DNA from: Aquisediminimonas profunda
Lineage (GTDB): Bacteria > Pseudomonadota > Alphaproteobacteria > Sphingomonadales > Sphingomonadaceae
Direction of reading: 5' to 3'
NCBI RefSeq assembly: GCF_019443285.1
Contig: NZ_CP080327.1
Span: forward strand, 2,414,001 to 2,478,000
DNA: 64,000 nt
Positions within the stretch are counted from its first letter, which is position 1. Each line of letters begins with the position of its first letter. The position numbers and the translations under genes were made by a program. A model generated the notes under the pieces. The model made no database searches. It worked only from the letters and a program-made list of their open reading frames with translations, and had not been told where the DNA came from. Shown here one piece after another: positions 1 through 47,596 of this stretch.

Positions 1-820
1 CGAGCACGCTGCTCTGGTTTACGGTGATGCGCGCCTCCTGAAACTGCGGATTCATCGGATGGCCCGCAAATCGCGCTCCGATGAGGGTGTCCGGATACCA
101 ATCCCAGAAATATATGGGATCACCCGCAGAGCCATGCACTCCGACGAAAGCGCCGCCGCCGTTGAGGTAGTCCTGAAAGGCCCGGCGTTGGCCAAGCGTA
201 AGCACGTCACCAGAAATGTTGTTCCAGATCACGGCATCGAAATGTCCAAGGGTCGCCGAATTGAAGGCTCCGCCCTTGTCGGTGATCGCCAACGTCCAGC
301 CTTTGCGCTCTGCCATCGCTATAATCGCTGCATGCGCGGCGTTAACCGAGGGCGCGTCGCGAAATCCGTTGATCTTCTCGAAGAGAAGCAAGCGCGGCTT
401 CTTGCCCTTTTGAAGGGCGAATCTGGGTCGGTCGTTATCGTAGCGGGCGCAGCGGGCGATCTTGTCCGCGTGGGAGACGGGAAGTGCGCGCAGCTTTCTG
501 TCGAGGTCCGGCAGGATCTTGAGATCGACGCCAGCAAAGGCTGCGGCTTCCTTGATGGTCAGGATAGACGCAAAGCTGGGTGGCTTCGTCCCAACGAACA
601 CCGGGTCGCCCTTGCTGAAATCCTGACCAGTTGCCAGTTCTGCCAATCTGCGTGCCTCAGCATTGAGCAGAACGTCGATGAACGGGCTGTTGATCGAAAA
701 CGGCGCATCGCGGCCCGCGCAATCAAGCATTGGTGGCGCCTTGGCCTGAGCCGGCGCTGGAACCAGCCAAGCAGAAGAGACGGCCGCAAACGCAAGTGAA
801 AGGGCCCGAACGATCCTCAT
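1..820 (-). CDS. ThuA-like domain protein, exported (3' end outside window)
   Basis: The reading frame opens at ATG 820 on the minus strand and is still open at base 1, so only about 273 residues are present. It begins with a Sec-type signal peptide (basic start, hydrophobic core, cleavage near APAQA at about residue 26). A region of about 115 residues follows, then a ThuA-like fold with RLLLFEK (strand 1), a VIWNNISGD segment and GGAFVGVHGSAGD, which match the class I amidotransferase-like core of the family. ThuA proteins are linked to catabolism of 3-keto-glycosides such as 3-ketotrehalose, but their exact reaction is not settled. The start overlaps the stop of the upstream GMC gene by 4 bp (ATGA), so it is the last visible gene of a five-gene operon. 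A periplasmic role on an oxidised sugar is inferred. Confidence 0.75.
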   Translation of the reverse strand, partial: MRIVRALSLAFAAVSSAWLVPAPAQAKAPPMLDCAGRDAPFSINSPFIDVLLNAEARRLAELATGQDFSKGDPVFVGTKPPSFASILTIKEAAAFAGVDLKILPDLDRKLRALPVSHADKIARCARYDNDRPRFALQKGKKPRLLLFEKINGFRDAPSVNAAHAAIIAMAERKGWTLAITDKGGAFNSATLGHFDAVIWNNISGDVLTLGQRRAFQDYLNGGGAFVGVHGSAGDPIYFWDWYPDTLIGARFAGHPMNPQFQEARITVNQSSVL

Positions 821-2508: not shown

Positions 2509-2509
2509 G

Positions 2510-3121
2510 TCAAAAAGCTCCAAAAGTGATGGCAGGGCGAGTTTTTGGCGTAACTTTGACCGAGGCTGTCCAGCCGCCCGGAACGTGCTCATAGACCAGC
2601 TCTTTGGTCAGTCCGATTTCACTGAAGTAATAGAGAACCGCCACGAGTTCCTTGAGCTTGGCATAACCGTTGTCGACCACCGATACGAGTGGCACGAACG
2701 GGTTGCCCTTCGGCGCATCCGGCGGAGGCGGCACGTCAACCAGGGCGGCCTTGTCATGCCCGGAAAGGAAGGTCTGACGATCCGCTGCGGACAGTTCGGC
2801 AAAGCCCTTGCCCTTTGCCTTGCGGGCCGCATCGTCCAGCCGCTGCAGTGCCCCTGAAAGTTCGTCGCGCGTCTTCTGCGAGGCCCAATCCGTAAACATC
2901 TGCGCCAGTGTCTTTGGAACCCCGGCGGCCAAGGCGCCCGGCGTGTCCGTAACCGGGATCAAGGTGTCAGCGAAGGCGTTGAGCGTCTCAATCTCATTGC
3001 TGCTCAGCGTCGCTGGCTTGGAGGCGCCTGGCAAGAAGTTGCACGACGAAACGGTCGTGGCCCCAAGCAGCAGCATGGCGTGCTGCATGAGCGCGCGCCG
3101 ATCCATCGAGAAACCATTCAT
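2510..3121 (-). CDS. Gluconate 2-dehydrogenase subunit 3-like small subunit, Tat lipoprotein
   Basis: The product has 203 residues. The N-terminus carries a DRRALMQHAMLLL twin-arginine-like signal followed by a lipobox (TVSSC), so it is probably exported folded and lipid-anchored. The body fits the gluconate 2-dehydrogenase subunit 3 family (helical, LNAFADTLIP near the start, VPPPPDAPKGNPF in the middle). These small subunits escort the GMC subunit through the Tat system and complete the dehydrogenase. ATG 3121 is preferred because AAGGAG lies 7 bases upstream; ATG 3127 would have a spacing of only one base. It sits directly before its GMC partner. Its paralogue is at 46948. Confidence 0.85.
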   Translation of the reverse strand: MNGFSMDRRALMQHAMLLLGATTVSSCNFLPGASKPATLSSNEIETLNAFADTLIPVTDTPGALAAGVPKTLAQMFTDWASQKTRDELSGALQRLDDAARKAKGKGFAELSAADRQTFLSGHDKAALVDVPPPPDAPKGNPFVPLVSVVDNGYAKLKELVAVLYYFSEIGLTKELVYEHVPGGWTASVKVTPKTRPAITFGAF

Positions 3122-3123
3122 TG

Positions 3124-3987
3124 TCATTCTCCTTCCCCGGCCCAGCATTCATGAATATAGCGGTGGCCTTCGGTGTAGACCTCTTCTTCGGAAGCAAAAA
3201 ACGGCCGCCAGACGCGGGTTGCCGCGGCAAGGTCAGGCACGGTTCCGCCGAATGCTTCGATCGTCAGCCAGTCCTGATAGCCAAGGCGTTTGAGCGCAGC
3301 GATCGTCTCGCGAATTTTCGCCTGGCCCTTTCCGGGCGTGCCGCGGTCATTCTCGCTGATGTGGACATGGCGAAGATGGCCTTTGGCCCAAGCAGATTCC
3401 ACAGCGCCGACCGAGTCCTTTTCTTCAATATTGGCGTGGAAAGTGTCGAAATGAATCCCGAAACCGGGTTCACCCAACAGGTCGAGATAGTCGCTCGCCT
3501 GTTCGCATGTATTGAACAGATAACATTCAAAGCGGTTCAGCACTTCCAGCGCGCAAACCAGCCCCGCGCCAGCGGCGATGGGCGCGACGCGGCGATGGAC
3601 CTCTGCGCACCGTTCATATTCAACGGGCTGTGGCCCCTGTCCCGAAAAGACGCCGAGCGGCTGGTACCAAGGACCTGCCATCACTTCGGCCCCCAGCGCC
3701 TCGCAGCATTCGATCACACGAGAGAGATGATCAAATCCCGCCTGGCGCACGGCGGGATCGTTTGAGATCGGACTGCACGCCTTGCTTGGAATTGTGGCCG
3801 TTACCGTCCGGGCTAGACCGAGATCATCGAGGATCGACGCCAGATGGCGGTAATGGCCCGGGTCCGAGGCGTCAAAGATCGGCACTTCGACCCCGTCGAA
3901 GCCCGTATCCCTAAGCGCCCTGAACAGGGGAACGTGAGCCTCGGTGACATGCCCGGTCCAAAGCAGCAGGTTCATCCCGACCTTCAT
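3124..3987 (-). CDS. Sugar isomerase/epimerase, D-tagatose 3-epimerase-like TIM barrel
   Basis: A 287-residue AP-endonuclease-2/xylose-isomerase-like TIM barrel. The four metal-binding positions of ketose 3-epimerases can be seen: Glu in ALEVLNRFE, Asp in HFDTFHANIEE, His in RHVHISE with the following GTPGKG loop, and Glu in WLTIEAFGG. This signature is closer to D-tagatose/D-allulose 3-epimerases than to hydroxypyruvate isomerases. ATG 3987 overlaps the MFS stop by 4 bp. Lying between a transporter and a glycoside 3-dehydrogenase, it may isomerise a keto-sugar released from a 3-keto-glycoside; that role is inferred. No signal peptide is seen, so it should be cytoplasmic. Confidence 0.75.
   Translation of the reverse strand: MKVGMNLLLWTGHVTEAHVPLFRALRDTGFDGVEVPIFDASDPGHYRHLASILDDLGLARTVTATIPSKACSPISNDPAVRQAGFDHLSRVIECCEALGAEVMAGPWYQPLGVFSGQGPQPVEYERCAEVHRRVAPIAAGAGLVCALEVLNRFECYLFNTCEQASDYLDLLGEPGFGIHFDTFHANIEEKDSVGAVESAWAKGHLRHVHISENDRGTPGKGQAKIRETIAALKRLGYQDWLTIEAFGGTVPDLAAATRVWRPFFASEEEVYTEGHRYIHECWAGEGE

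Positions 3988-7406: not shown

Positions 7407-7414
<8 letters not shown>

Positions 7415-12244: not shown

Positions 12245-12248
<4 letters not shown>
11214..12248 (+). CDS. Rieske aromatic O-demethylase oxygenase subunit, VanA-like
   Basis: A 344-residue ring-hydroxylating-type oxygenase resembling vanillate O-demethylase VanA. The Rieske 2Fe-2S ligands are Cys49/His51 (CPHRLLPLS) and Cys68/His71 (CRYHG). The mononuclear iron site is DNLMDLTHETYVHAG (Asp157, His160, His165). Such enzymes remove O-methyl groups from vanillate, syringate or O-methylgallate, feeding protocatechuate or gallate to LigAB. It overlaps both ligJ and ligA by 4 bp, so it belongs to the ring-cleavage operon. The VanB-type reductase it needs is not in the window. 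Substrate unproven. Confidence 0.85.
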
Positions 12249-14462
<2,214 letters not shown>

Positions 14463-14481: not shown

Positions 14482-15795
14482 CTAGAATCGGGCGAGCAGG
14501 TTTTCGCACCATTCCTGGCGGCCTGATATCTGTTCGGGCGCGCTGTTGCTGGTGATCGCGCGGTCGGCAATTTCGGCCAGGGTTGCGCCGGGCGCGTGGA
14601 TCATCTGGCCCAATTCACCCTGCCAGCCGGCATAGCGTTCGGCGCGGAAGCGTTCGAGTTGGCCATCCTCGATTATTGCCGCAGCTCGCAATAGGGCACG
14701 GGCGATCGTGTCGACGCCGCCGATATGGCCGTGGAAAAGGTCAACTGCATCAACCGATTGTCGGCGCACCTTTGCATCGAAGTTGAAGCCGCCGTTGCCA
14801 AGGCCTCCGGCGCGCAACACTTCCAGCATTGCCAGCGTCACTTCCTCGACTGAGTTCGGGAACTGGTCGGTATCCCAGCCATTTTGGGGGTCGCCACGAT
14901 TGGCGTCGATCGAACCAAGGATCCCGAGCGCACGTGCCATCGCGATTTCATGTTCGAAAGTATGGCCGGAGAGCGTCGCGTGGTTGGCCTCGATGTTGAC
15001 CTTGACCTCACCCTCGAGACTGAAGCGCTTCAGGAACGCGTAAACGGTTTGCGTGTCGAAATCATATTGGTGCTTGGTCGGTTCGTGGGGCTTGGGCTCG
15101 ATCAGGATCGTACCGGAAAAGCCGATGCGATGCTTGTGGTCGACCACAAGTGAAAGGAACCGCCCAAAATTTTCCTGCTCAATGCCGATTTCGGTGTTTA
15201 GGATCGTGTCGTAGCCCTCGCGTCCACCCCACAAGACGTAATTTGCGCCGCCCAAACGATGCGTAGCGTCCAGCGCGTCACGGACTTGACTGGCGGCCCA
15301 TGCATAGACTTCAGGGTTCGGATTCGTTGCAGCCCCGGCCATATAGCGGGGGTGGCCGAAAAGGTTGGCCGTTCCCCACAGCAATTTGCGGCCATGACTG
15401 GCCTGCAGTTCCTCAAGATGGTCGACGGCCTCGGCGAAGCTCGTGCGGAATTCGCCAATAGTCGTGGCATCGGCCATGACGTCGACATCGTGGAAGCAGT
15501 AGAACGGCAGGTCTAGCTTTTCCACAAAACTCAGCGCCGCCGCACGCTTGGCTCTGGCGTTCACCGAATCCATGCTGCCCGTCAGCCACGGCCTCGAAAA
15601 CGTGCCCGCGCCGAACACGTCGCTCCCTGGCCAGCAGAAGGTGTGCCACATGCACACAGCGAAGCGAAGATGGTCCTCCATTCGCTTGCCCAGCACCATC
15701 CGGTCCTTATCGTACCAGCGATAGGCAAGATCATTGCGCGTTTCGGGGCCTTCATAGCGGACAGTATCAAACGGTGCGAAATAGTCGGCTGACAT
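14482..15795 (-). CDS. xylA: Xylose isomerase
   Basis: A 437-residue class II xylose isomerase. The catalytic histidine region [10 protein letters not shown], the [11 protein letters not shown] signature and the metal-binding [14 protein letters not shown] and GSIDANRGD segments are all present. It converts D-xylose to D-xylulose and in many species also D-glucose to D-fructose. It follows xylB by 12 bases. Being placed in this cluster suggests xylose-containing glycosides, or side activity on other released aldoses; both are inferences. Confidence 0.97.
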
Positions 15796-15807: not shown

Positions 15808-17247
15808 TCAAAAGCGTTTTAGCGCTGGATAGGCTGCGCGGAATTTTTCGACTTTTGGAGCGAGGCGTTCGGCAAGCGCCAGGTCGGGAAGGATCGTTTC
15901 ACGCACCAGCGGTCGAGTGCAGATTTCCGAAGGTTCGGCTCCGGTCGTTGCAATGTTTGCAAGGCGCGCCGCGCCGAGTGCAGGGCCGACCTCGCCACCA
16001 TCAAGATAGTCGAGCGGCAGGCCAAGAACCGAAGCGAAAACTGTCCCCCAAAATCGAGAACGTGCGCCGCCGCCGATAACCGAAAGCTTCTCTATCCGGG
16101 TTCCGGCAGCACGCAGGGCCGCAAGGCCATCGGCATGGGCAAAGGCCACCCCTTCCAACACTGCGACGGCCAATCGTCCCGGATCAGTCTCGTTCGATAG
16201 CCGGAGAAAGGCTCCACGGACATGAGGATCGTTGTGCGGTGTGCGTTCGCCCGAAAGATAGGGGAGGAACAGTTCCGGTCCCGCTGCTGCACCGGCCTGC
16301 TCTGCAGCAGCGAGCAAAGCCGGTACGTCAAGACCCGTCAGGCCGCCTGCCCAGTCCAGGCAAGAGGCGGCGGACAGGTGTACACTCATCTGATGCCAAG
16401 TGTCGGGCAAGCAATGGCAGAACGCATGCACCGCACCGGCCGGATTTGGACGGAAATCGCGGGTGGCAACGAAGATCACCCCGGATGTGCCGAGCGACAG
16501 GAGTGCGTCACCGTCTGAAATAACCCCAACTCCCGCGGCTCCCGCGGCATTGTCTCCTGCCCCGGCCGCAACGGGGACAGTGTCCATGCCCCAGCGGGCG
16601 GCCAATTCAGCGCGGAGCGAACCGCTGACTTCGGCGCCTTCATAGAGGCGCGGCATATGCTCCCTTGTGAGGCCGGTTGCTGCAAGCAGGACGTCCGACC
16701 AATTGCGGGCCCCGACATCAAGCCAGAGCGTGCCAGCGCTATCCGAACGATCGCTGGCCTTTTCACCCGTCAGGCACAATCGGACATAGTCCTTTGGCAG
16801 CAAGACCGTCTTGATCTGCTCAAAAATCTCCGGCTCGTGCCGACGCACCCAAGCGAGCTTTGGTGCCGTAAAGCCCGGCATGGCGATGTTGCCGACAATA
16901 TTGCGCAAATCGGGGACGGACGCTTCAAGCTCGGCACATTCCGCAAAAGCTCGCCCATCGTTCCACAATATTGCAGGTCGAAGGGGCCGATCATCAATTC
17001 CCAACAGGGTGGCGCCATGCATTTGCCCGGCAAGGCCTATGCCCTTGATCCCGGCTCTAAGCACAGACGGGAACTGGAGGATCGTAGCTTCGGTTGCGCC
17101 CCACCATGCGTCGGGATCCTGTTCGGACCACAGTTCGTGAGGCCGCGAGACCGAAAGCGGAGTAGTGGCCTGGGCAACGACTCGACCAAGCGCGTCCAGA
17201 ATGACCGCTTTTACCCCCGAGGTGCCAATATCGAGCCCTAGGTACAT
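15808..17247 (-). CDS. xylB: Xylulokinase
   Basis: A 479-residue FGGY carbohydrate kinase. The N-terminus MYLGLDIGTSGVKAVI is the phosphate-1 motif, GLAGQMHGATLL is the xylulokinase substrate loop, and LPYLSGERTPHNDPHVRGAF plus the IGGGARSRFW adenosine motif complete the family pattern. It phosphorylates D-xylulose to xylulose 5-phosphate. The gene lies between a GMC oxidoreductase (8 bases upstream) and xylA in one minus-strand operon. Confidence 0.97.
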   Translation of the reverse strand: MYLGLDIGTSGVKAVILDALGRVVAQATTPLSVSRPHELWSEQDPDAWWGATEATILQFPSVLRAGIKGIGLAGQMHGATLLGIDDRPLRPAILWNDGRAFAECAELEASVPDLRNIVGNIAMPGFTAPKLAWVRRHEPEIFEQIKTVLLPKDYVRLCLTGEKASDRSDSAGTLWLDVGARNWSDVLLAATGLTREHMPRLYEGAEVSGSLRAELAARWGMDTVPVAAGAGDNAAGAAGVGVISDGDALLSLGTSGVIFVATRDFRPNPAGAVHAFCHCLPDTWHQMSVHLSAASCLDWAGGLTGLDVPALLAAAEQAGAAAGPELFLPYLSGERTPHNDPHVRGAFLRLSNETDPGRLAVAVLEGVAFAHADGLAALRAAGTRIEKLSVIGGGARSRFWGTVFASVLGLPLDYLDGGEVGPALGAARLANIATTGAEPSEICTRPLVRETILPDLALAERLAPKVEKFRAAYPALKRF

Positions 17248-17255: not shown

Positions 17256-18872
17256 CTATCTGCGCGCATCCTCAAGGATCAATTCGGCCGCGCGCTCCGC
17301 AACCGCAATGGCTGGTCCATTTGTGTTGCCCGAAACAGGGGTCGGCATGATCGAGCAATCGACGACTCGAAGGCCTTCGACGCCATGGACGCGGCATCTC
17401 TTGTCGGTTACCGACGTCATTGGATCGGTGCCCATCGAACAGGTTCCTGTGCCGTGGAGACCGCACTCGGTCAGTTTGCGCACTTCTTCGACCAGAAGTG
17501 CCTCATCCGTCACCTGCGCACCGGGCATCCGCTCGCTGCCGATAAATTGTTCCAGCGCGGGCATTGTGGCGAGTTTTCGGAAAAGATGGAAGAGCTCCAG
17601 AGCCTTTTGCTGATCGTAGGGATCGCTCCACATTTTGGGATCGACTTCGGGCGAAATGCGGAAATCGGGCGACGTGACTGTCACCATGCCGCGACTTCTC
17701 GGGCGCAGATGATAGCCGGAAAAGGTCAGACCTGGCCGGGGTGTCAGCGGGCTGCCGGGATTTTCGGCCATCTCGTTGATTGTGCGCATCGCGAAGGGGG
17801 CCGCAGCGACCTGGAATTCGGGCCAACTGGTCAGCCCCTCGGTTGAGATCAGCCCGGTCAGAGGCATGCCCACGCGGGCCAGCGGACCCGAGCGCGTAAG
17901 GAAATAGCGCAAGGCGTTACGGTAAAGCCGCCAGCCAATAAATTCCCGGTTGGTGCCGGGATGATTGCGGAGATCGAACGATACGCCCAACTTTTGGTGA
18001 TCGGCAAAATTCTGCCCCACGGCGGGGAGGTCGTGAACGATGCCTATGCCCAATCCCTGCACTGCCGCGCCCGGGCCTATGCCGGAAAGTTGGAGAAGCT
18101 GAGGTGAGCCATAGACTCCCGCTGAAATGATTACTTCGCCAGCATTATGAACCTCCTCCTGGCCATTCCGCTCACAGCTGACGCCGCTCGCGCGCCCTCC
18201 TTCGAACTTGATCCGCTTGACGGCGGCCGGGTTCAGAATCGTCAAGTTGGGGCGGTTGCGCACCGGCTTTACAAAGGCTTCATATGTTGACTGGCGTTGG
18301 CCCATGCGGTCGACGGTATATTGAGACCGGCCGACACCAGTGATCCCCGGTGCAGTGATGTCGGGCACTTGCGGCATGCCGACTTGCTCGAACGCGCTCA
18401 TCAACGCGTCGAACACAGGGCCTGCATAGTCGGAGGGCGTGATCTGCTGTTCGCCGCCGCGACCGCGTCCGGCATGGGCACCGGGCGCGCGATAGTCTTC
18501 GAACTTCGCGACGCATCGCGAAATTTCGTCCCAGCCCCAACCGGTCAGGCCTTGCGCGGCCCAATTGTCGTAGTCGCTGGGCATGCCTGGCAAATACCAG
18601 GTGCCGTTGATTGCCGAACTCCCGCCCAATCCTCGTCCATATGCGTGCATTTCGCTGCGCCTGCCGGGCTGTTTGGCCACTGGATACGCACGAAAATAGG
18701 CAGGGTTGCCCATGATCTTCACAAATCCGCCGGCCATTTTGATGAATGGGTGCTGATTGGTGCCGCCGTCCTCAATCAGGAGGACGCGGGTTTCCGGATT
18801 CGCGCTCAGCCGATTAGCAAGCACACAGCCTGCCGAACCCGCACCGACAATGATGTAATCAAACTGGCCCAA
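17256..18872 (-). CDS. GMC oxidoreductase, choline/alcohol dehydrogenase type, candidate glycoside oxidase
   Basis: A flavoprotein of about 538 residues with YIIVGAGSAGCVLANRL (FAD), GRGLGGSSAINGTWYLPG (GMC signature 1) and SAGVYGSPQLLQLSGIGP (GMC signature 2), ending in HGTGTCSMG and VSGNTNGPAIAVAERAAELI. I prefer a TTG start at 18872, because GGGAG lies 7 bases upstream and the ATG at 18899 would abut the palindrome at 18901-18918; the frame is open to 18950. No signal peptide is seen. GMC enzymes include C-glycoside 3-oxidases (CarA type) as well as alcohol dehydrogenases. Divergent from the CGD pair, it is a candidate for making the 3-keto-C-glycoside. Confidence 0.8.
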   Translation of the reverse strand: MGQFDYIIVGAGSAGCVLANRLSANPETRVLLIEDGGTNQHPFIKMAGGFVKIMGNPAYFRAYPVAKQPGRRSEMHAYGRGLGGSSAINGTWYLPGMPSDYDNWAAQGLTGWGWDEISRCVAKFEDYRAPGAHAGRGRGGEQQITPSDYAGPVFDALMSAFEQVGMPQVPDITAPGITGVGRSQYTVDRMGQRQSTYEAFVKPVRNRPNLTILNPAAVKRIKFEGGRASGVSCERNGQEEVHNAGEVIISAGVYGSPQLLQLSGIGPGAAVQGLGIGIVHDLPAVGQNFADHQKLGVSFDLRNHPGTNREFIGWRLYRNALRYFLTRSGPLARVGMPLTGLISTEGLTSWPEFQVAAAPFAMRTINEMAENPGSPLTPRPGLTFSGYHLRPRSRGMVTVTSPDFRISPEVDPKMWSDPYDQQKALELFHLFRKLATMPALEQFIGSERMPGAQVTDEALLVEEVRKLTECGLHGTGTCSMGTDPMTSVTDKRCRVHGVEGLRVVDCSIMPTPVSGNTNGPAIAVAERAAELILEDARR

Positions 18873-18900
18873 GCCCAAACTCCCGATGCAACAATGCATT

Positions 18901-18918
18901 CTAGAACTAATGTTCGTA
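18901..18918. promoter_or_regulatory. Degenerate palindromic operator upstream of GMC-xylBA
   Basis: A degenerate copy of the recurring palindrome: CTAGAA, six spacer bases, TTCGTA. It lies about 30 bases upstream of the proposed TTG start of the GMC gene. It pairs with the perfect copy at 18956-18977 to cover the divergent promoter region. Confidence 0.5.
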
Positions 18919-18934
18919 TTTTTCCAACACGAGG

Positions 18935-18951
18935 CTTGACCCCATGTCAAG
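18935..18951. promoter_or_regulatory. Inverted CTTGAC/GTCAAG element in divergent promoter region
   Basis: CTTGAC, five bases, GTCAAG. Each arm reads as a -35-like TTGAC(A/C) for one of the two divergent transcripts. It lies midway between the two palindromic operators. Clear -10 boxes at normal spacing were not found. Confidence 0.35.
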
Positions 18952-18955
18952 CGCC

Positions 18956-18977
18956 AATTAGAAACATCGTTCTAATT
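18956..18977. promoter_or_regulatory. Perfect palindromic operator upstream of the CGD operon
   Basis: Perfect 8-bp arms AATTAGAA and TTCTAATT around a 6-base spacer (ACATCG). It ends 17 bases before the CGD beta start codon, so a bound regulator would block transcription or initiation there. It is the best copy of the consensus TTAGAA-N6-TTCTAA. Confidence 0.7.
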
Positions 18978-18994: not shown

Positions 18995-19375
18995 ATGCTG
19001 CCGGTCGAACGGGTTATTGGAGAAGAGGGGCTTAGCGTAGGTCCGGATGGCCTTCGGCTCGCCATGCGCCTGCCGTGGTATCGCTCACTGCCGTTTTCGA
19101 CGGTCGAGGTGGCCAGCCTGTCAATCGACGGCGAAGCCGTCGACTTGTCCGCAGCCAATGTGGAGTATGAAGGCGAAAGCTGGCCGTTGGCCGATCTGGG
19201 TGAGCAGACCAACGCTTTCTGGTTCGTTCGGGACAGCGCCTTCCTCCATTTGCCCAATCGCAGCGCCACAGCGGGTAGCGAACATAGTGTCGCGCTCACG
19301 GTCAACGTCAGCCCTCCATACATTCCCGGCATGAAGCGGGCCAATCCGCAGACCCAAGTTCTGCGCGTCGCCTGA
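18995..19375 (+). CDS. C-glycoside deglycosidase beta subunit (DUF6379-like)
   Basis: A 126-residue small beta-rich protein with no signal peptide. It shares with the protein at 32153-32527 the pattern R-x-P-W/Y-YR-x-L near residues 25-30, S-x-V-E, and S-(I/V)-DGE, and ends in a YIPGMKRANPQTQ or equivalent segment. These small proteins are the beta subunits of C-glycoside deglycosidases (CarC, DfgB, DgpC type), which stabilise and activate the TIM-barrel alpha subunit. ATG 18995 has AAGGAG 8 bases upstream; a GTG at 18980 is less likely. The alpha subunit follows 14 bases downstream. Confidence 0.8.
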   Translation: MLPVERVIGEEGLSVGPDGLRLAMRLPWYRSLPFSTVEVASLSIDGEAVDLSAANVEYEGESWPLADLGEQTNAFWFVRDSAFLHLPNRSATAGSEHSVALTVNVSPPYIPGMKRANPQTQVLRVA

Positions 19376-19389
19376 AGGAGATTATAGTC

Positions 19390-20388
19390 ATGGCAACGAA
19401 TACCGGCCCCCAAGTGGGCGTAACGCTATATTCCTTCACCAATCCCTGGTTGACCCGCAAGTTCGAACTTGATGGTCTGCTGCGTGAAGTCGCCAAGCGC
19501 GGCATGGGACCGAATATCGAAATCATCGGATTCCAGTCCTTCAAGGAATTCCCTGACGTCTCGGATGAATTCGCTGAGCAGTTCAAGATGCTCATGGCCG
19601 AAACCGGGCTCAACCCGGTTTCATGCGCGATCAATTCAGACCGCTTCCTCCGGCCCGGCCAGCAGCCGATCGATGATGCGTCGCTCGTTGAATATCACAA
19701 GCGACAGCTGCGCTCGGCCAAGAAAATGGGCTTCAAACTCGTTCGCTACCAATTTGCGCTGCCGGTGGAACTGCTGCCGCAGATCGCACCCTATGCCGAA
19801 GAACTCGACATTCGCATGGGCGTCGAAGTCCACGCGCCGATGTGGTCCGGGCATCCGGCTGTTCAGGCCTATGGCGAAATGTATGACAAGCTCGACACGC
19901 CGTATCTTGGATGGATTCCGGATTTCGGAGGCACCGCAAGCCGGATTCCGGAATCAATGTTAAACGCTGCCCGCGCTGTTGGTGCAAAGGAAAGCCTGCT
20001 CGACAAGCTCAAGGAAGTCTGGATCGAGCCGGGAATGAGCCATGAAAAGGCAGGCCGTCTGCGCGAATGGGCGATTGCGGAAGGTCATCCGCCGGCACAC
20101 ATCCAGGCTGCAAGCCTTGCCTTCTTCATCCTCGCCAACAATGATCCGAAGAGTTGGGCCGCGCTGGTCGACCGGACGATCCACATTCATGGCAAATTCT
20201 ATGGCATGGATGCCGACGGGCGTGAGGAAGCGATCGATTATGGAACCATCCTGCCCCTTTTCCGCGATGGCGGCTTCGATGGGACGTTGGTCAGTGAGTG
20301 GGAAGGCCACGCCTATCTACCGGATGACGGGTTCGATCAAGTCGAGGCGCATCAGTCGATGTGCCGCCGCATTTTCGCGGGAGGTTAG
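19390..20388 (+). CDS. C-glycoside deglycosidase alpha subunit, TIM barrel
   Basis: A 332-residue xylose-isomerase-like TIM barrel. Likely metal ligands and catalytic residues are Glu146 and His148 (VEVHAP), Asp178 (WIPDFG), His265/His267 (IHIHGKFY) and Glu303/Glu305 (SEWEGH). The same motif set occurs in the second copy at 32542-33558. In characterised CarBC/DfgAB/DgpBC systems this subunit cleaves the sugar-aglycone C-C bond of a 3-keto-C-glycoside by a metal-assisted beta-elimination-type reaction; some also act on 3-keto-O-glycosides. Pairing with the beta subunit makes this call strong. The aglycone is unknown. Confidence 0.82.
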   Translation: MATNTGPQVGVTLYSFTNPWLTRKFELDGLLREVAKRGMGPNIEIIGFQSFKEFPDVSDEFAEQFKMLMAETGLNPVSCAINSDRFLRPGQQPIDDASLVEYHKRQLRSAKKMGFKLVRYQFALPVELLPQIAPYAEELDIRMGVEVHAPMWSGHPAVQAYGEMYDKLDTPYLGWIPDFGGTASRIPESMLNAARAVGAKESLLDKLKEVWIEPGMSHEKAGRLREWAIAEGHPPAHIQAASLAFFILANNDPKSWAALVDRTIHIHGKFYGMDADGREEAIDYGTILPLFRDGGFDGTLVSEWEGHAYLPDDGFDQVEAHQSMCRRIFAGG

Positions 20389-23248: not shown

Positions 23249-23288
23249 TTAGAACACGGATTATTATAAGCATTTTAAAGATTGTCAA
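23249..23288 (-). promoter_or_regulatory. Promoter with degenerate palindromic operator for GPH symporter operon
   Basis: On the minus strand TTGACA (23288-23283) is followed after 14 bases by TATAAT (AATAAT at 17 bases). The operator copy TTAGAA-N6-TTATTA (23249-23266) lies at and just beyond the -10, which suits repression. The distance to the start codon is about 45 bases. Confidence 0.55.
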
Positions 23289-23959
23289 TTGGCCCGGAAA
23301 TAAGCGAGGCACATGCGCCCGAGTTCGCGCTTGAGCAGGTTCCAATCATAGTCATGGACTGCCTCTCCGCTTGATCCAAGACTCAGTTGGCGGGCCAGTG
23401 TGGCGAAGACGATGTGGTAGGCCGACTGAGCCTTGACCCTCGGGTCGCTACCGCCGAATTCGGAGGCGTGAGCGAGCATTGCCTCGGTCGAGTCATGCTC
23501 GGCGCGCAGCGCGTTCTCCTTGCCAGGCGCGGACACCTGAGGATCGTAACTCGCGCGCTCCATGGTCAATCTTAGCAAGGGGGCGTGGCGGCGCAGCACT
23601 TCCGCATAGCCTTCAACATAGGCCGGGACGAAACTTGCAAGGTCCTTGCAGTCCTTGGCCAGACGATCGAGCAGGGCGCTTTCCTCGGCGCGCAAGACTT
23701 CCAGCGCCTCTGCAATGACGCCACGGACCAGATTGTCCTTGCTTTCAAAGCGCAGGTAGATCGAGCCAATCGAAACCTGGCCGCGCTCGCTTACTTCCTG
23801 CAATGTGAATTCTTCGCTGCCACGTTCGAGCATCAATTCACGCCCTGCGGCGAGCATCCGTTCAAGCGACGCCTTGGATCGGCCCTGCTGCGGCTTTCGG
23901 CTCACATCCTCGACTGCAAAGGCCGGAGCTGTGCTCTTCTTCCTCAATCCACCATGCAT
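23285..23959 (-). CDS. TetR/AcrR-family regulator
   Basis: A TetR-type repressor of about 224 residues. The N-terminal HTH is clear (FTLQEVSERGQVSIGSIYLRF), preceded by a basic GRSKASLERML helix, with an all-helical ligand domain after it. ATG 23959 has AGGGA 7 bases upstream; ATG 23977 is an alternative. It is transcribed alone, between a transporter operon and an MFS gene. It is the only TetR-type protein in the window and thus a candidate to bind the palindromic operator, although its own upstream region lacks a copy. Confidence 0.85.
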   Translation of the reverse strand: MHGGLRKKSTAPAFAVEDVSRKPQQGRSKASLERMLAAGRELMLERGSEEFTLQEVSERGQVSIGSIYLRFESKDNLVRGVIAEALEVLRAEESALLDRLAKDCKDLASFVPAYVEGYAEVLRRHAPLLRLTMERASYDPQVSAPGKENALRAEHDSTEAMLAHASEFGGSDPRVKAQSAYHIVFATLARQLSLGSSGEAVHDYDWNLLKRELGRMCLAYFRAN

Positions 23960-24077
23960 GGAGCGATCCCTGTTCATTCAGCTGCAGCGCCCATGCGCCA
24001 CTTGTGCAAAAAGATAAACTGCGTTTCGACGCGAAATCAATCGGTGTGAGGCAGTTTTCAACTAAGGTGACACCTGA

Positions 24078-25295
24078 TCATGCTGTCCGTCCCCGACCTT
24101 GGCTGATGATGTGAAGGACAAAAGCAATCGCAGCCGCGCCGAGGCCAATCGAGCCCGCGGTCAGGAAAGCTCCCTGCATCGATCCAGTCTGCACATCGAG
24201 CGCATGGACCAGCCGCGGCGATTGCGACTGGGCGAGGAAGAAGGCCGCCGTCCAAACTCCCATGCCCAGGCCCCGATGGGTGTAGCTGAATTTGGTTTGG
24301 GCCCAGCTGATCAACGACGGCACGGTCATCCCTGCGGCGGTTTGCTGAACGATCAGGGCCAAGGCCATCGCGCTTGCCGATGTCGCAAGTCCCATCCCGG
24401 CGAGTCCGCCGCCAAGCAGAAGCAGGAATGTGCCGATCAGCACGCGATGGCCGCGATCGGCGAGGAGGCGAAATAGAAAGGCGCCGGCAAGAATGAATAG
24501 CTGGGGCACAAAGATGATCTTTGCATAGTCTTCAGAATCATTGATCCCGACCTCTGCAAAGACCAGTGCACCGTTGATGATGAAGACATAGTAGAGCAAT
24601 GACGCCAGCAGCGTAACTGCGGCAATCTGCACCAAAGCCAGCCACGGCACGGGCGATGATATGGACTGTTCGCCGTTCGCAGAAGCGAATTCCGCGCCAA
24701 TACGTCGGGCTGGCTCGTACAGCCATACCAGCATTGCGGCCCAGATCGGGAAGGCAACAAGGTAGACATAGAAGACGCCGTTCCACTGCAGCTTCGTGGC
24801 ATAGCCGACAATCAGCGCAACGATGCCTGCCAGAAACGGGCCCAAAAGCCCTTGAAGAAACAGCCAATTCTTGCGTCCCTGATCGTCCCAGTAGTCGCCA
24901 ATCAGGGTGTTGACGATTGTCAGAATTCCGGCCTCCGAGACGCCGAGCAGCAGGCGGGAAACATAAATATGGTCAAGGTTGTCGAGAACGAGAGGCGCTG
25001 CACCGAAGACGCCGTAAAAGGCGGTGCACAGCAGGAGCAGCGGCCGTCGTCCGAACCGATCGACCAGAAGTCCGGCGAAGGGGGCAAGCACCGCCATTGC
25101 CAGTCCTGGAGCGCCGATCATCGCCGGCACCTTGGCACGTGCTTCGGGGTCATTGGCGAAATGCTGAATCATTGTGGGCACTGCAGGTCCCATTGCCACG
25201 ATCGCAATGATGGGCAGGAAGGCTGCGATAACGATCGTGAGCCCCTGCGGGCGCAAGGTCAGATTTTGAGAGAAGGCCGATAGTTTATTCATCAT
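24078..25295 (-). CDS. MFS transporter
   Basis: A 405-residue major facilitator with about 12 membrane segments. The inter-segment 2/3 motif is GLLVDRFGRRPLLLL. Two adjacent ATG codons (25295, 25292) follow a GGGAAA sequence; either could be used. It is divergent from the Gfo/Idh operon across an operator copy at 25349-25366. Aromatic acids and sugars are both plausible substrates, and nothing in the sequence decides. Confidence 0.7.
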   Translation of the reverse strand: MMNKLSAFSQNLTLRPQGLTIVIAAFLPIIAIVAMGPAVPTMIQHFANDPEARAKVPAMIGAPGLAMAVLAPFAGLLVDRFGRRPLLLLCTAFYGVFGAAPLVLDNLDHIYVSRLLLGVSEAGILTIVNTLIGDYWDDQGRKNWLFLQGLLGPFLAGIVALIVGYATKLQWNGVFYVYLVAFPIWAAMLVWLYEPARRIGAEFASANGEQSISSPVPWLALVQIAAVTLLASLLYYVFIINGALVFAEVGINDSEDYAKIIFVPQLFILAGAFLFRLLADRGHRVLIGTFLLLLGGGLAGMGLATSASAMALALIVQQTAAGMTVPSLISWAQTKFSYTHRGLGMGVWTAAFFLAQSQSPRLVHALDVQTGSMQGAFLTAGSIGLGAAAIAFVLHIISQGRGRTA

Positions 25296-25366: not shown

Positions 25367-25390
25367 ATATAACAACGGTGGGATTTGGCA

Positions 25391-26506
25391 ATGCGGCGTT
25401 TGCGAATGGGAATGATTGGTGGTGGGCCAGGCAGCTTCATTGGGCCGATCCATCGCATCGCGGCTGAACTCGACCGTGAAATCGAGCTCGTCGCTGGATG
25501 CTTCTCCAGCCAGTCGGATCGCAGCCATGTGGCAGGGGAGAGCTACAGGATCGATCCCGCTCGTGCCTATGCAAGCCTCGATGCAATGTTTGCTGGTGAA
25601 AAGGCCAGACCAGACGGTATCGACTTTGTCAGCATCGTCAGCCCGAACCATCACCACTTGCCCGCGGCGCGCGCAGCGCTTGCCGCCGGCATACCGGTGA
25701 TCAGCGACAAACCTGCAACGGCCACATTGGCCGAGGCCCGAGAGCTGGCCGAATGCGTTGCCGCATCGGGGCTGGCCTATGGCTTGACGCACACCTATTC
25801 GGGTTACCCGCTTGTGCGAGAAGCGCGCGCGCGCATTGCTTCCGGCGCCTTGGGAGCCATTCGCAAGGTGGTGGTGGAATATCCGCAAGGCTGGTTGGCG
25901 GGCGATGCAGTAGGCAAGCAGGCCGAATGGCGCACCGATCCCGCCCGATCCGGGCCCGGAGGCTGCATCGGCGATATTGGTACCCACGCATTCCAGCTCG
26001 CGGAATTTGTGACCGGTCTGAATGTGACGGCATTGGTGGCGGATCTTGCCGCGGTCGTGCCGGGGCGAAAAGTGGACGATGATTGTTCGGTCCTGCTCCG
26101 GTTCGAAAATGGTGCGCGCGGCGTGTTGCTGGCCAGCCAGATTGAAGTCGGTGAAATGAACGGGCTCCGCATCCGGGTATATGGAGAAAAAGGCGGGCTT
26201 CTTTGGAAGCAGGAAGTGCCGAACACGCTCACGATCCATTCGCTCGATGGTCGCACCGAAATCGTGCATGCTGGCGGAACGCAACTTGGACCCGACGCGG
26301 CTTCGCGTACGCGCACCCCGACCGGGCATCCGGAAGGCTATCTCGAGGCGTTCGCGAACATCTACCGCGATTTCGCGGCTGCCTTGCGCGGGGAACCGGC
26401 GCCCTTGCTGCCAGGCATCGACGATGCTTTGCGAGGCATGACCTTTATCGACACTGCCATCAATGCCAGTCGCGAGAAATCCGGCTGGGTTGCCTTGACC
26501 GTCTGA
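25391..26506 (+). CDS. Gfo/Idh/MocA-family sugar dehydrogenase
   Basis: A 371-residue oxidoreductase. The Rossmann motif GMIGGGPGSFIG is at the N-terminus, the family motif (E/D)KP appears as ISDKPATATL, and the GGCIGDIGTHAFQLAEF catalytic segment supplies the conserved Asp and His. ATG 25391 is used; TTG 25385 is possible. Family members paired with TIM-barrel proteins oxidise or reduce C3 of sugars (for example 3-keto-trehalose or levoglucosan pathways). It is 14 bases upstream of such a TIM-barrel gene. Interconverting a sugar and its 3-keto form is the best inference. Confidence 0.82.
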   Translation: MRRLRMGMIGGGPGSFIGPIHRIAAELDREIELVAGCFSSQSDRSHVAGESYRIDPARAYASLDAMFAGEKARPDGIDFVSIVSPNHHHLPAARAALAAGIPVISDKPATATLAEARELAECVAASGLAYGLTHTYSGYPLVREARARIASGALGAIRKVVVEYPQGWLAGDAVGKQAEWRTDPARSGPGGCIGDIGTHAFQLAEFVTGLNVTALVADLAAVVPGRKVDDDCSVLLRFENGARGVLLASQIEVGEMNGLRIRVYGEKGGLLWKQEVPNTLTIHSLDGRTEIVHAGGTQLGPDAASRTRTPTGHPEGYLEAFANIYRDFAAALRGEPAPLLPGIDDALRGMTFIDTAINASREKSGWVALTV

Positions 26507-26520: not shown

Positions 26521-27573
26521 ATGAAAACAATCATGGGCCCAGCAATCTTCCTTGCCCAATTTGTGGGCGACGAAGCTCCCTTCAATAGCCTTGAAGCCAT
26601 AGCTGACTGGGTTGCCGGACTGGGCTACAAAGGCATCCAGATACCGAGCTGGGATGAACGGCTCTTCAACCTGACACTGGCGGCAGAGAGTCAGACCTAT
26701 TGCGACGAGATCAAGGGAATGCTCGCCGACAAAGGCCTCTCGATCACGGAACTTTCGACGCATCTTCAGGGACAGCTTGTTGCAGTCCATCCGGCTTTCG
26801 ATGCGCAATTCGACGGGTTTGCGCCTGCTGCTGTGCACGGCAATCCCAAAGCGCGACAGGAATGGGGGGTCGCACAGGTCAAGAATGCGGCAAAGGCCAG
26901 CCGCAAATTGGGCCTTACGGCCCACGCGACGTTTTCAGGCGCGCTTGCCTGGCCCTATTTCTATCCTTGGCCGGCTCGCCCCGACGGTCTTGTTGAAGAT
27001 GCATTCGATGAACTCGCGCGGCGCTGGAAGCCAATCCTAGATGTGTTTGAGGATAATGGCGTCGATGCCGCCTATGAGATCCATCCGGGCGAGGATCTTC
27101 ATGACGGGGTGACGTTCGAAATGTTCCTTGATCGGGTGGGCAACCATCCGCGGGCCAATATCCTCTACGATCCCAGCCATTTCGTACTGCAGCAGCTCGA
27201 TTATCTTGCGTACATCGACATCTACCATTCGCGGATCAAATGCTTTCACGTGAAAGATGCCGAGTTTCGCCCCAATGGTCGCTCCGGGGTCTATGGCGGT
27301 TATCAGTCATGGGTGGACCGGCCGGGCCGGTTCCGCTCGCTCGGTGACGGGCAGGTCGACTTTCCGGCGATCTTTTCGAAAATGGCCGCCTATGATTTTC
27401 CCGGGTGGGCCGTACTCGAATGGGAATGCGCGCTGAAGCATCCAGAACAGGGCGCTGCAGAGGGCGCGCCGTTTATCGCCAAGCATATCATTCGAGTCAC
27501 GGAACACGCGTTTGATGATTTTGCCTCGGGCGGGGCGGACCGTGCGCTCAACCGCAAGCTGATGGGCATCTGA
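26521..27573 (+). CDS. Sugar phosphate isomerase/epimerase-like TIM-barrel protein
   Basis: A 350-residue xylose-isomerase-like TIM barrel, cytoplasmic. Probable metal ligands are Glu186/His188 (AYEIHPGEDLHDG), Asp217 (ILYDPSHFVLQ), His243 (CFHVKDAEF) and Glu300/Glu302 (LEWECALKHP). The start ATG 26521 follows GAGAGGATTTAAGAAC. It directly follows the Gfo/Idh gene; such pairs are known in 3-keto-sugar pathways where the barrel acts as lyase, hydratase or isomerase on the 3-keto compound. It lacks the EVHAP and IHGKFY motifs of the CGD alpha subunits, so it is a different subgroup. Confidence 0.75.
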   Translation: MKTIMGPAIFLAQFVGDEAPFNSLEAIADWVAGLGYKGIQIPSWDERLFNLTLAAESQTYCDEIKGMLADKGLSITELSTHLQGQLVAVHPAFDAQFDGFAPAAVHGNPKARQEWGVAQVKNAAKASRKLGLTAHATFSGALAWPYFYPWPARPDGLVEDAFDELARRWKPILDVFEDNGVDAAYEIHPGEDLHDGVTFEMFLDRVGNHPRANILYDPSHFVLQQLDYLAYIDIYHSRIKCFHVKDAEFRPNGRSGVYGGYQSWVDRPGRFRSLGDGQVDFPAIFSKMAAYDFPGWAVLEWECALKHPEQGAAEGAPFIAKHIIRVTEHAFDDFASGGADRALNRKLMGI

Positions 27574-30321: not shown

Positions 30322-31320
30322 GTGTCCAACTACGTCCTTAATGCCTGGTATATGGCTGCCTGGGCCAATGAAATACCGGATGACGGTATCTTGGCGCGCA
30401 CTCTGCTTGATCGCAAATGGGTGCTCTGGCGGGAGCGCGATGGACGCTGGGCGATGATCGAAGATCGCTGCCCGCACCGTTTTGTGCCGCTCAGCCGCGG
30501 CAAATTTGAAAACGGCCGGATTGCCTGCGGCTATCACGGGCTGACCTTTGACGGGACTGGCGCCTGCGTCCACAATCCATTTGGCGGAAGCCTGCCGCCG
30601 GGCGCGGGCGTGTGCAGCTTGCCAGTAGTGAGTGCGTACGGAGGTTTATGGTTCTGGCCGGGCGATCGGGCAAAGGCCGATCCGGCTGCAATTCCAGACT
30701 TCGCATTTATCGATGCTTCCGGTCCCGTCGAGCGTGCGACCTATGTCATGGGCGTCAACTATGAACTCATCGCTGACAATCTTCTGGATCTGAGCCATGC
30801 CGAATATCTGCATGTTGAAAGCTTCGGGACCAACGGCTCGCTGTTCAGCCACGGCGCGCAGTCAGTCGAGCAAGACCAAACGGGCGCGATCTGGAACAAG
30901 TGGGACATGACGGGTGCGCCTCCCCCGGGCTGGGCATCGCCTATGATGCCGGAAGGCAGCTCGGTTGATCAGGCGCTCCACATCCGCTGGCATGCCCCCG
31001 CCAATCTTGCGCTGTTCATTGAAATGCGACCGTCCGGAAAAGCGGCGCCTTTGGTGCCACCCATGGCCAATCCGCATATACTGACGCCGGAAACGACGCG
31101 TTCGACACATTACTTCTTCACTCATGCACCAGGCGAGGAAGAGGCTGCGCAGGCGCGGCGGGTGTTTTTGGAAGAAGACGAACCCATGGTTTCAGCGCAG
31201 GCCGAAGCAATGGGCGATGCAGATTTCTGGGACCTCAAACCTCTCATTCTGGCCAGCGACAAGGCCGCCATTCTGGCGCGCCGGAAAATCATGCAGTTGA
31301 AGAGAGCGGAAGGCGTTTAG
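30322..31320 (+). CDS. Rieske non-heme iron oxygenase (VanA/aromatic O-demethylase-like)
   Basis: A 332-residue oxygenase. Rieske ligands are Cys50/His52 (CPHRFVPLS) and Cys69/His72 (CGYHG). The mononuclear iron site is DNLLDLSHAEYLHVESFG. GTG 30322 is the start because GGAGG lies six bases upstream, and the frame upstream of it is leader. It is a distant paralogue of the gene at 11214 and also lacks a reductase nearby. Its operator-controlled promoter places it with the glycoside genes rather than the lig genes, so it may O-demethylate or hydroxylate the intact compound or aglycone. Confidence 0.82.
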   Translation: MSNYVLNAWYMAAWANEIPDDGILARTLLDRKWVLWRERDGRWAMIEDRCPHRFVPLSRGKFENGRIACGYHGLTFDGTGACVHNPFGGSLPPGAGVCSLPVVSAYGGLWFWPGDRAKADPAAIPDFAFIDASGPVERATYVMGVNYELIADNLLDLSHAEYLHVESFGTNGSLFSHGAQSVEQDQTGAIWNKWDMTGAPPPGWASPMMPEGSSVDQALHIRWHAPANLALFIEMRPSGKAAPLVPPMANPHILTPETTRSTHYFFTHAPGEEEAAQARRVFLEEDEPMVSAQAEAMGDADFWDLKPLILASDKAAILARRKIMQLKRAEGV

Positions 31321-32156
31321 CGACCAGACTTGATGCGCGCGATTTCATCGGCCTGCAAGTTGCGGATTCTCACGTTTCGAAAGAAGACCTCTGCGCCTTC
31401 GAATTCCAGTGCAATTCGGCCTTTTGTGACGGCCGCGTCGTCGCGATTGATCATGCGGAAAAGGGTATTGACGATCCGGCCATTGACGAGGTGTGCCGCC
31501 TGATCGCCAAAAGCATAGAGGTCAAGCGTGTTCCAACCCGCCAGATTTTCGAATTGTCCCGAGTGGCGAAGCCATTGGCGTGCGATACCGCCTGCCAGTA
31601 TGGGTTCCTGATAGGCCGACGGCAGGCCAGGAAACCAGTTTGGCCACAGCGGCGTGCCACCAAGCAAAGGTCCCTGCAGCGCGCGGGTATTGATCATGAC
31701 CGCGTCGCCGACATCGGTTTCTTCGACCTGAAACTCGACGCCATCGGGAAAGAGTCGGTCAAGGTCGGGCGCCAAATGATACAACAGCCCGCTATTGCGC
31801 CTCTGCAGGTCGCGCGGTGCGAAGCGACGTTGACCCCATCGGAACTGGACCTGCAGATGATAATCCCCGAACACGTCCTTCGTCGCCAAGTGGCCAAAAC
31901 TTGCCTTGTCCGGGCCATCGAAGCGCGGCCCTAGAAAGTGCAGCTCGCCATTTTCAACAGCAATTGCCTTGTGCAAATCGCGATTGCCGCTTCCTTCCTG
32001 CCAGATTGTCCAGCCATCAAGAGAGCGGCCATTGAACAAATGTCGCCACGCCGATTCGGGCACAGGCGGCGCTGTTGCCAGCAGCTTGGCTGGCAACAAA
32101 CCGACACCTGCCAGCGCCGTCGCACAACCGCCGATCAGGGATCGCCGGTCTATCAC
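31317..32156 (-). CDS. 3-keto-disaccharide hydrolase (DUF1080) domain protein, Tat signal
   Basis: A 279-residue protein with a twin-arginine-type signal (DRRSLIGGCATALAGVGLL) and a DUF1080 jelly-roll domain: HLFNGRSLDGWTIWQEG at the start, RNSGLLYHL and VEFQVEETD in the middle. Members hydrolyse 3-keto-glycosides. It starts with GTG 32156, overlapping the CGD beta stop (GTGA), so it is the third gene of the CGD operon. Its stop overlaps that of the convergent Rieske gene by 3 bp. Likely role: hydrolysis of O-linked 3-keto-sugars in the periplasm. Confidence 0.8.
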   Translation of the reverse strand: MIDRRSLIGGCATALAGVGLLPAKLLATAPPVPESAWRHLFNGRSLDGWTIWQEGSGNRDLHKAIAVENGELHFLGPRFDGPDKASFGHLATKDVFGDYHLQVQFRWGQRRFAPRDLQRRNSGLLYHLAPDLDRLFPDGVEFQVEETDVGDAVMINTRALQGPLLGGTPLWPNWFPGLPSAYQEPILAGGIARQWLRHSGQFENLAGWNTLDLYAFGDQAAHLVNGRIVNTLFRMINRDDAAVTKGRIALEFEGAEVFFRNVRIRNLQADEIARIKSGR

Positions 32157-39754: not shown

Positions 39755-39804
39755 TACATAAGCCGAGTGGCTTGGCAATGGCGAAAAGCGGGGGAGGGAA
39801 TCCG

Positions 39805-46858: not shown

Positions 46859-46876
46859 TGCAACTCTCCTCTAGAA

Positions 46877-46894
46877 ATAGAATATATATTCTGA
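46877..46894. promoter_or_regulatory. Palindromic operator between redoxin and GMC operons
   Basis: ATAGAA-TATATA-TTCTGA, a near-perfect copy in the 89-bp divergent region, sharing the TATATA spacer with the copy at 33645. It lies close to the redoxin start (19 bases) and 53 bases from the small-subunit start. Confidence 0.65.
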
Positions 46895-46947
46895 TACAGG
46901 GATTTTGGACCGGCCGCAAGAGTGGCGACGAATGGGAGTGGGCAAGC

Positions 46948-47580: not shown

Positions 47581-47596
47581 GGCGAGGGCAGGGACA

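Follow-up and report, generated by a model that had tools for sequence, protein, structure and literature searches.

Carbon-carbon bonds between a sugar and an aromatic ring withstand ordinary glycosidases, and the worked-out bacterial routes for C-glycosides considered here belong to gut Firmicutes and soil Actinobacteria, with a further cluster in Deinococcus. Sphingomonads are known for the breakdown of lignin-derived and other aromatics. Does a sphingomonad also encode the means to detach a sugar bound through carbon? The question is raised by two adjoining genes of Aquisediminimonas profunda, located in a 64,000-nucleotide stretch of its genome (contig NZ_CP080327.1, positions 2,414,001 to 2,478,000; hereafter the window, whose own numbering is used throughout). 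We conclude that these genes are a C-glycoside deglycosidase (CGD) family pair, here called pair 1. Taken as a whole, it seems likely that they encode a heteromeric, divalent-metal-dependent 3-keto-glycoside lyase, with the neighbouring GMC flavoenzyme (GMC_b) as the most likely C3 oxidant and and with a hydratase homologue, a candidate reductase, a proposed aglycone route and probable TetR control of a shared operator completing the scheme. Pair 1 adds one more member to an established family; its module, which contains a different GMC lineage, is a variant.

Identification of the CGD pair

The beta subunit gene (beta 1, 18995..19375, forward strand) starts with ATG at 18995 and encodes 126 residues. 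After a gap of 14 nucleotides it is followed on the same strand by the alpha subunit gene (alpha 1, 19390..20388), encoding a TIM barrel of 332 residues, with EVHAP beginning at residue 146, IHGKFY at 266 and SEWEG at 302. A preliminary description of this DNA had reported a beta-rich 126-residue protein followed by a TIM barrel with these motifs, and had assigned the two to the two-gene CGD family; the open reading frames (ORFs) and motifs are indeed at those places, and the assignment holds. Beta 1 matches the Pfam family PF19906, CGDB (C-glycoside deglycosidase beta subunit), with 49.6 bits against a cut-off of 27.6. The profile search proposed for the beta subunit therefore returned a CGD family, rather than the lack of any such match that would have spoken against the assignment. 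The best solved relative of beta 1 is AgCarC2 (6e-12). Alpha 1 is best matched among solved structures by AgCarB2 (7dnm_A, 4.6e-48, residues 4-328), and its eight solved relatives include 8qvc, 9m3a and the DgpC chains (7bvr). It falls short of AP_endonuc_2, a generic TIM-barrel family of Pfam (29.2 bits, cut-off 31.1), and a search of NCBIfam with both subunits gave zero matches at E<=0.01.

The two genes adjoin in all 35 related loci that were compared, with the aligned beta and alpha ends spaced by 16-48 nucleotides. The collection of these loci started from close relatives of alpha 1, so that linkage counts from them describe the alpha 1 branch only; their flanks extend at most 10 kb per side.

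Predicted active site and phylogeny

The best reference for pair 1 is AgCarB2-CarC2 of Arthrobacter (AgCGD2, PDB 7dnm/7dnn), which likewise consists of two adjacent subunits, with a Glu-Asp-His-Lys-Glu metal set and a PF19906 beta subunit. Its metal ligands are reported to be Glu147, Asp179, His269, Lys271 and Glu305, and its base His149, assisted by Glu307; the same report describes metal binding as essential (PMC8563793). With the His and Glu equivalents changed to alanine, PuCGD is reported to keep 10.4% and 49.8% of its activity, and MiCGD 1.8% and 1.9% (PMC8563793). By hand mapping through the AgCarB2 alignment and this numbering, the predicted metal ligands of alpha 1 are E146, D178, H267, K269 and E303, and the predicted catalytic residues are H148 and E305, so that equivalents of both His149 and Glu307 are present. 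All seven residues are invariant in 26 alpha rows, namely alpha 1, 24 of the 35 loci, and alpha 2 of a second pair in the window.

The same catalytic residues are found in DgpBC/PuCGE of the gut bacterium PUE (PDB 7bvr, 7exz), where oxidation also precedes cleavage and which is reported to be an alpha4-beta4 octamer (PMC8563793). Tyr39 of its beta subunit (DgpB) is described as critical for C-C cleavage (PMC13273386). The residue aligns with Tyr29 of beta 1, which is invariant in 25 beta rows (23 of the 35 loci and both betas of the window). In a tree of 28 alpha sequences, the alpha 1 branch joins AgCarB2 and an Arthrobacter protein (100/97), and alpha 2 is one of 16 sequences in an unresolved group, which also contains the Deinococcus/8qvc pair; the tree contains several long branches, for which the program warned of possible false joins.

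The linked flavoenzyme GMC_b

GMC_b (17256..18872, reverse strand) is a flavoenzyme of the choline-dehydrogenase lineage and a candidate glycoside C3 oxidase or dehydrogenase. Its ORF extends to 18950, and comparison with relatives places the probable start at the TTG at 18872. The arrangement of reversed GMC_b, beta and alpha recurs in 33 of the 35 related loci; in one of the two exceptions (L020) the contig begins 27 bp upstream of beta.

A draw of 297 Sphingomonadales genomes provides a less biased test. Beta subunits of the pair 1 type (type-1 beta, 149 bits or more) occur in nine of them, and a GMC_b orthologue (E<=1e-120) in the same nine, with each best match at least 64% identical (Fisher p 2e-17, relatedness ignored). 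GMC_b is adjacent to the beta gene in eight of the nine, and no orthologue at that threshold was found in the five genomes that carry only other CGD beta types. The search profile contained the second beta of the window, beta 2, which scores 147.9 bits; the line to the weakest type-1 beta (149.1 bits, genome G122) is accordingly thin, and G122 was checked separately (63% identity to alpha 1, 55% to beta 1). A Deinococcus-type oxidase was found at E<=1e-10 in none of the nine pair 1 genomes; as a control, that query recovered the Arthrobacter gene and its own gene, two of four records.

Which kind of oxidant would GMC_b be? Of the published C3 oxidants, those of soil bacteria, CarA and PurA, are reported to be flavin adenine dinucleotide (FAD) oxidases, and that of gut bacteria, DgpA, to depend on nicotinamide adenine dinucleotide (NAD) (PMC12724307), and pyranose-oxidase-like genes are reported from other Pseudomonadota (PMC10807413). 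The glycoside 3-oxidases CarA, PurA and PsG3Ox resemble the present case in that a GMC superfamily flavoenzyme lies beside the CGD pair, whereas the DgpBC/PuCGE system relies on the Gfo/Idh enzyme DgpA for C3 oxidation, unlike the GMC_b proposed here. GMC_b scores 399 bits against a choline dehydrogenase model and 27 against a pyranose oxidase model, versus 54-58 and 210-214 bits for the CGD-linked GMCs of one Arthrobacter and one Deinococcus plasmid; the cut-offs are 605 and 545, and none of the compared GMCs reaches them. Hence GMC_b belongs to another GMC lineage than the pyranose-oxidase-type FAD C3 oxidase of the car/pur pathway, a distinction drawn through those CGD-linked Arthrobacter and Deinococcus GMCs. 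The chances are about even that GMC_b, from the choline-dehydrogenase lineage, represents a third type of C3 oxidant for glycosides, recruited independently of the others, and that it is strictly coupled to the sphingomonad C-glycoside lyase branch, sharing its promoter region and operator, and takes the place of both the pyranose-oxidase-type (CarA, PurA) and the Gfo/Idh-type (DgpA) oxidants.

A conserved operator between GMC_b and pair 1

The 122-bp gap between the GMC_b start and beta 1 holds the palindrome AATTAGAA-N6-TTCTAATT (18956..18977), 17 bp upstream of the beta 1 start. The preliminary description had placed pair 1 in its own operon under a perfect palindromic operator. The operator part of this proposal stood: upstream of beta, the palindrome is conserved with at most two mismatches in 33 of the 35 loci, with at most one in 31, and perfectly in 12. 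The notion of an isolated unit has to be given up, as GMC_b shares the promoter region and a second pair lies 12 kb off; that description mentioned neither of these, nor the hydratase homologue described below. Because the palindrome recurs in 33 loci with 26 different N6 spacers, it is not a chance occurrence, and conserved arms around a variable spacer are what a dyad that binds a protein would show. A degenerate second copy (18899..18920, five mismatches by hand count) lies 57 bp from the first, and seven of the 35 loci have a second copy, at three mismatches, with the identical 57-bp spacing. Between the two copies, the inverted repeat GCTTGAC-N5-GTCAAGC (18934..18952) possibly represents two back-to-back -35 boxes; a promoter scan of the region did not report it as a promoter, and yielded minus-strand candidates only and zero forward promoters.

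Across the window the palindrome has seven matches at up to three mismatches, against 0.03 expected. Besides the operator, these are sites with three mismatches each at 23247, 33643, 33728, 39735, 43076 and 46875, in promoter gaps of the gene island around pair 1, and all seven lie upstream of island genes provided that the true start of the gene at 46816 lies inside its longest ORF. This distribution suggests one regulon. The palindrome is A+T-rich, and base composition may explain part of the placement. Genome-wide (3.4 Mb), and with no more than one mismatch allowed, the core occurs at two places, both in the island; since a reversed control pattern occurs at seven, the genome-wide count is not enriched, and it is the location in the island that is noteworthy. 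The operator is probably bound by the nearby TetR-family regulator (23285..23977, reverse strand), the candidate binder, which is encoded in 21 of the 35 loci.

Candidate genes for the released sugar

The product of the gene at 26521..27573 (forward strand) is a 2-hydroxy-3-keto-glucal hydratase homologue: over its full length (26521-27570), 252 of 350 residues (72%) are identical to PDB 8ro4, named so by its depositors. The same compound is reported as the sugar product of CGD-type elimination (PMC10628242), and the hydratase of the four-step non-hydrolytic glycoside pathway appears to be represented here by a homologue linked to CGD pairs. In eight of the nine pair 1 genomes, such a homologue is encoded no more than 12 kb from the type-1 beta. 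In the window it adjoins a Gfo/Idh/MocA oxidoreductase (25385..26506, forward strand), a member of the family of DgpA and a candidate 3-keto-sugar reductase, whose best solved relatives are entries named just 'oxidoreductase'. The predicted lyase, the hydratase homologue and the candidate reductase are therefore encoded near one another in the island.

Directly behind GMC_b on the reverse strand are a xylulokinase (15808..17247; TIGR01312, 531 bits, cut-off 380) and a xylose isomerase (14482..15795; TIGR02630, 632 bits, cut-off 533), a position that they take in eight of the 35 loci. Glucose is the default sugar, and xylosides are possible because of these two genes. An MFS transporter (24078..25295, reverse strand), present in 20 of the 35 loci, is a candidate importer.

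Proposed mechanism and alternative explanations

On these grounds we suppose that a flavoenzyme, most likely GMC_b, would oxidise the C3 position of the sugar in a polyphenol glycoside. The metal site of alpha 1 would then hold the 3-keto group while His148 takes the C2 proton, and Tyr29 of beta 1 would help to activate the phenolic aglycone. Beta-elimination would yield the aglycone and 2-hydroxy-3-keto-glucal, to which the hydratase homologue (26521) may add water, with the Gfo/Idh protein (25385) as the candidate reductase. The aglycone may then be processed by the island's FAD hydroxylase, VOC dioxygenase and hydrolase and by the enzymes of its protocatechuate genes. Pair 1 and GMC_b would be expressed from a common promoter region under the conserved palindromic operator, probably bound by the TetR protein. 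The substrates are probably polyphenol C-glycosides, and we infer that the organism degrades aryl C-glycosides, as the preliminary description had proposed; a studied member of the family, PuCGE, also cleaves a 3-keto-O-glucoside (PMC10628242), and the two activities cannot be told apart by sequence alone.

Several observations weigh against this scheme. Alpha 1 shares no more than ~31% identity with each of AgCarB2 and 8qvc, and three residues that in AgCGD2 line the aglycone or the sugar or touch it, Arg123, Ser124 and Asn248, are all replaced in alpha 1, by Gln121, Phe122 and Phe246. The closest solved relatives of GMC_b are a chloramphenicol-inactivating enzyme, choline dehydrogenase and an alcohol oxidase. 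In the second exceptional locus (L037), GMC_b is absent despite 9.6 kb of upstream sequence, which is unrelated DNA and looks like an assembly join, and in G122 GMC_b lies ~10 kb from the beta gene. Dehydrogenases of the GMC_a/GMC_c type, described below, also occur in all nine pair 1 genomes. Relatives of the hydratase and the Gfo/Idh protein stand beside pair 1, within the flanks, in just 15 of the 35 loci, and the hydratase search in one of the nine pair 1 genomes (G200) was without a match. Finally, PuCGE is reported to act on 3-keto-phlorizin, an O-glucoside, at a rate comparable to that on 3-keto-nothofagin (PMC10628242). As for L037 itself, it is a contig of a Nitrospira metagenome-assembled genome with a beta gene and a piece of alpha (residues 1-178, 89% identity), and is probably contamination or an assembly join.

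Pair 1 could be a CGD-family lyase for polyphenol O-glycosides, or O-xylosides, with C-glycoside cleavage incidental or absent. The phlorizin result fits this reading; plant glycosides are reported to be mostly O-linked (PMC10628242), xylB and xylA lie behind GMC_b in eight of 35 loci, and the island also encodes a PF06439 protein and, with rhamnose genes, an alpha-L-rhamnosidase. We regard this as unlikely. Oxidised O-glycosides are reported to shed their sugar non-enzymatically (PMC12724307), so a dedicated complex would be less needed for them; 3-keto-puerarin is reported as a 30-fold better substrate of PuCGE than 3-keto-nothofagin (PMC13273386). The beta tyrosine called critical for C-C cleavage (PMC13273386) is invariant in the 25 rows, and the alpha 1 branch groups with AgCarB2. 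It is less probable still that pair 1 is a hydratase or epimerase acting on 3-keto-glucal or a 3-keto-sugar instead of a lyase. An initial suspicion had been that PDB 8qvc, and with it the pairs, were hydratases; it was dropped for pair 1 and kept as a very minor alternative, because 8qvc matches a protein of a Deinococcus CGD cluster and the island has a separate gene for its hydratase homologue. The hydratase slot seems to be filled, since the separate, 72% identical homologue lies 6 kb downstream, and eight of the nine pair 1 genomes have one.

The identity of the oxidant is less settled than the lyase step. Two further dehydrogenases of the window (GMC_a and GMC_c) are alternative candidates. 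One, at 817..3148 on the reverse strand, combines a GMC large subunit, with fructose dehydrogenase as best solved relatives, and a gluconate-2-dehydrogenase subunit 3 family protein; the other, at 46816..49276 on the forward strand, is a second such pair of a PF13618 small subunit and a GMC protein. There is a somewhat less than even chance that one of these oxidises C3 for a genuine CGD while GMC_b oxidises another alcohol of the substrate or the aglycone, which would be compatible with the lyase step. Relatives of their large subunits occur in all nine pair 1 genomes and in all five genomes whose CGD betas are of other types only, and are not found in G051, which is without a CGD beta; C3 oxidation of lactose in the periplasm of Caulobacter is reported for LacABC (PMC9007349), and the closest solved relatives of GMC_b act on alcohols or choline. 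It is because of the general presence of this type in the pair 1 genomes that we hold the oxidant role of GMC_b to be about evenly poised. On the side of GMC_b, it alone of the three searched oxidase types (GMC_b, GMC_a/GMC_c, Deinococcus) tracks pair 1 and shares its promoter region. Moreover, the rearranged cluster of G122 keeps an operator-like site (three mismatches) between the TetR gene and GMC_b, and sugar-acting GMCs, glucose oxidase and pyranose dehydrogenase, are among its more distant solved relatives.

Occurrence and implications

The type-1 module is patchy, occurring in 9 of the 297 genomes and 4 of 77 genera. It lies on plasmids in seven Novosphingobium records (at least 60% identity to alpha 1), one of them pNL2 of N. 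aromaticivorans DSM 12444 (SARO_RS18755-18760 for pair 1, SARO_RS18765 for GMC_b), where the palindrome is perfect and in which the module could be tested; the second pair is encoded there by SARO_RS18730-18735. A catalase gene lies ~10 kb on from the module in pNL2 (L043 27351-29525), which would fit an H2O2-forming oxidase.

CGD homologues in Proteobacteria were reported by Mori et al. (PMC8563793) and PurABC homologues in Pseudomonadota by Kumano et al. (PMC12724307), so the distribution of CGD as such is already known. Among the matches listed in our literature searches, C-glycoside deglycosylation was in no title or abstract connected with sphingomonads or Novosphingobium; no paper came up for DUF6379, and the matches to four PDB codes were all off the subject by title. 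If the proposed scheme is true, a regulated sphingomonad route would bring a major environmental lineage into the turnover of C-glycosides, and GMC_b would offer biocatalysis an oxidase of a new lineage.

Further CGD pairs

A second complete CGD pair lies 12 kb from pair 1 on the reverse strand. It consists of alpha 2 (33558-32542, 338 residues, with an alternative ORF start at 33615), in which all seven metal and catalytic residues are kept, and beta 2 (32527-32153, 124 residues; PF19906, 123.4 bits). The gene after it (31317..32156, reverse strand) encodes a member of the 3-keto-disaccharide hydrolase family PF06439. Alpha 2 and beta 2 are 49.5% (161/325) and 46.7% (49/105) identical to the chains of 8qvc, whereas the identity of alpha 1 is just 31%. 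PDB 8qvc/8qvd probably comes from the C-glucosyl flavonoid/xanthonoid cluster of Deinococcus aerius, because 8qvc_A is 97.5% identical (316/324) to a protein of Deinococcus aetherius; a work by Furlanetto of 2024 is said, by its title, to concern that D. aerius cluster. The neighbour of the Deinococcus CGD is a pyranose-oxidase-like GMC, in contrast to the choline-dehydrogenase-like GMC beside pair 1.

The whole genome has three CGDB matches at E<=0.01: beta 1, beta 2 and one that lies 14 kb past the window. The third, distant CGD-like pair (L041 13232-14578; C1:2491232-2492578 in the genome) has an alpha subunit with 20% and 25% identity to the other two and a deletion at their lid region, and opposite the metal-ligand His of HxK it has Gln in the alignment (IQAKF). 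For a small TIM barrel at 36618, identity with the O-glycoside eliminase AtOGE was considered and set aside, as the His-x-His metal/base arrangement given in the description of AtOGE was not seen by eye.

Proposed aglycone route and other island genes

Three consecutive genes on the forward strand encode an FAD-dependent hydroxylase family protein (39772..40917), a VOC-fold, extradiol-dioxygenase-like protein (40934..41836) and an alpha/beta hydrolase (41840..43006). Such a set of predicted hydroxylase and ring-opening enzymes resembles known flavonoid pathways. Counterparts occur in the CGD cluster of D. aetherius: its hydrolase is 57% identical to the 41840 protein over 386 residues, its FAD hydroxylase 48% to the 39772 protein over 186 residues (the Deinococcus gene is partial), and its VOC protein 23% to the 40934 protein. 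In G122, beta 1, alpha 1, the FAD hydroxylase, the VOC protein and the hydrolase follow one another in this order on one strand, and pair 2, the GMC_c pair, the hydratase, the Gfo/Idh protein, the TetR regulator (38%) and GMC_b are also found inside 17 kb, together with four operator-like sites (1, 1, 3 and 3 mismatches) in three promoter gaps. The gene content is suggestive of a polyphenol substrate whose ring would be hydroxylated and then opened, like a flavonoid A-ring.

The other aglycone ring could be taken by a protocatechuate 4,5-cleavage set (5487-14462) and a 4-hydroxybenzoate 3-monooxygenase that is also encoded. LigA, LigB, OMA tautomerase and CHA aldolase are above curated cut-offs, and the set further contains LigI-like and LigJ-like amidohydrolases and a LigC-like Gfo/Idh gene, these last labels being our own. 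A VanA-like oxygenase gene stands between the LigJ-like and LigA genes. Bergenin or 4-O-methylgallate as the substrate, a reading drawn from the VanA-like and LigAB neighbours, was rejected: within the flanks of at most 10 kb per side, these genes accompany pair 1 in just one of the 35 loci (L009), and in distant relatives the link to the FAD hydroxylase, VOC protein and hydrolase is better supported.

The island also encodes, at 51959-62334, a GH106 alpha-L-rhamnosidase, a rhamnose isomerase, a bifunctional rhamnulose-phosphate aldolase/dehydrogenase and an FGGY-family kinase, a gene content that may point to rhamnosylated polyphenols as further substrates of the island.

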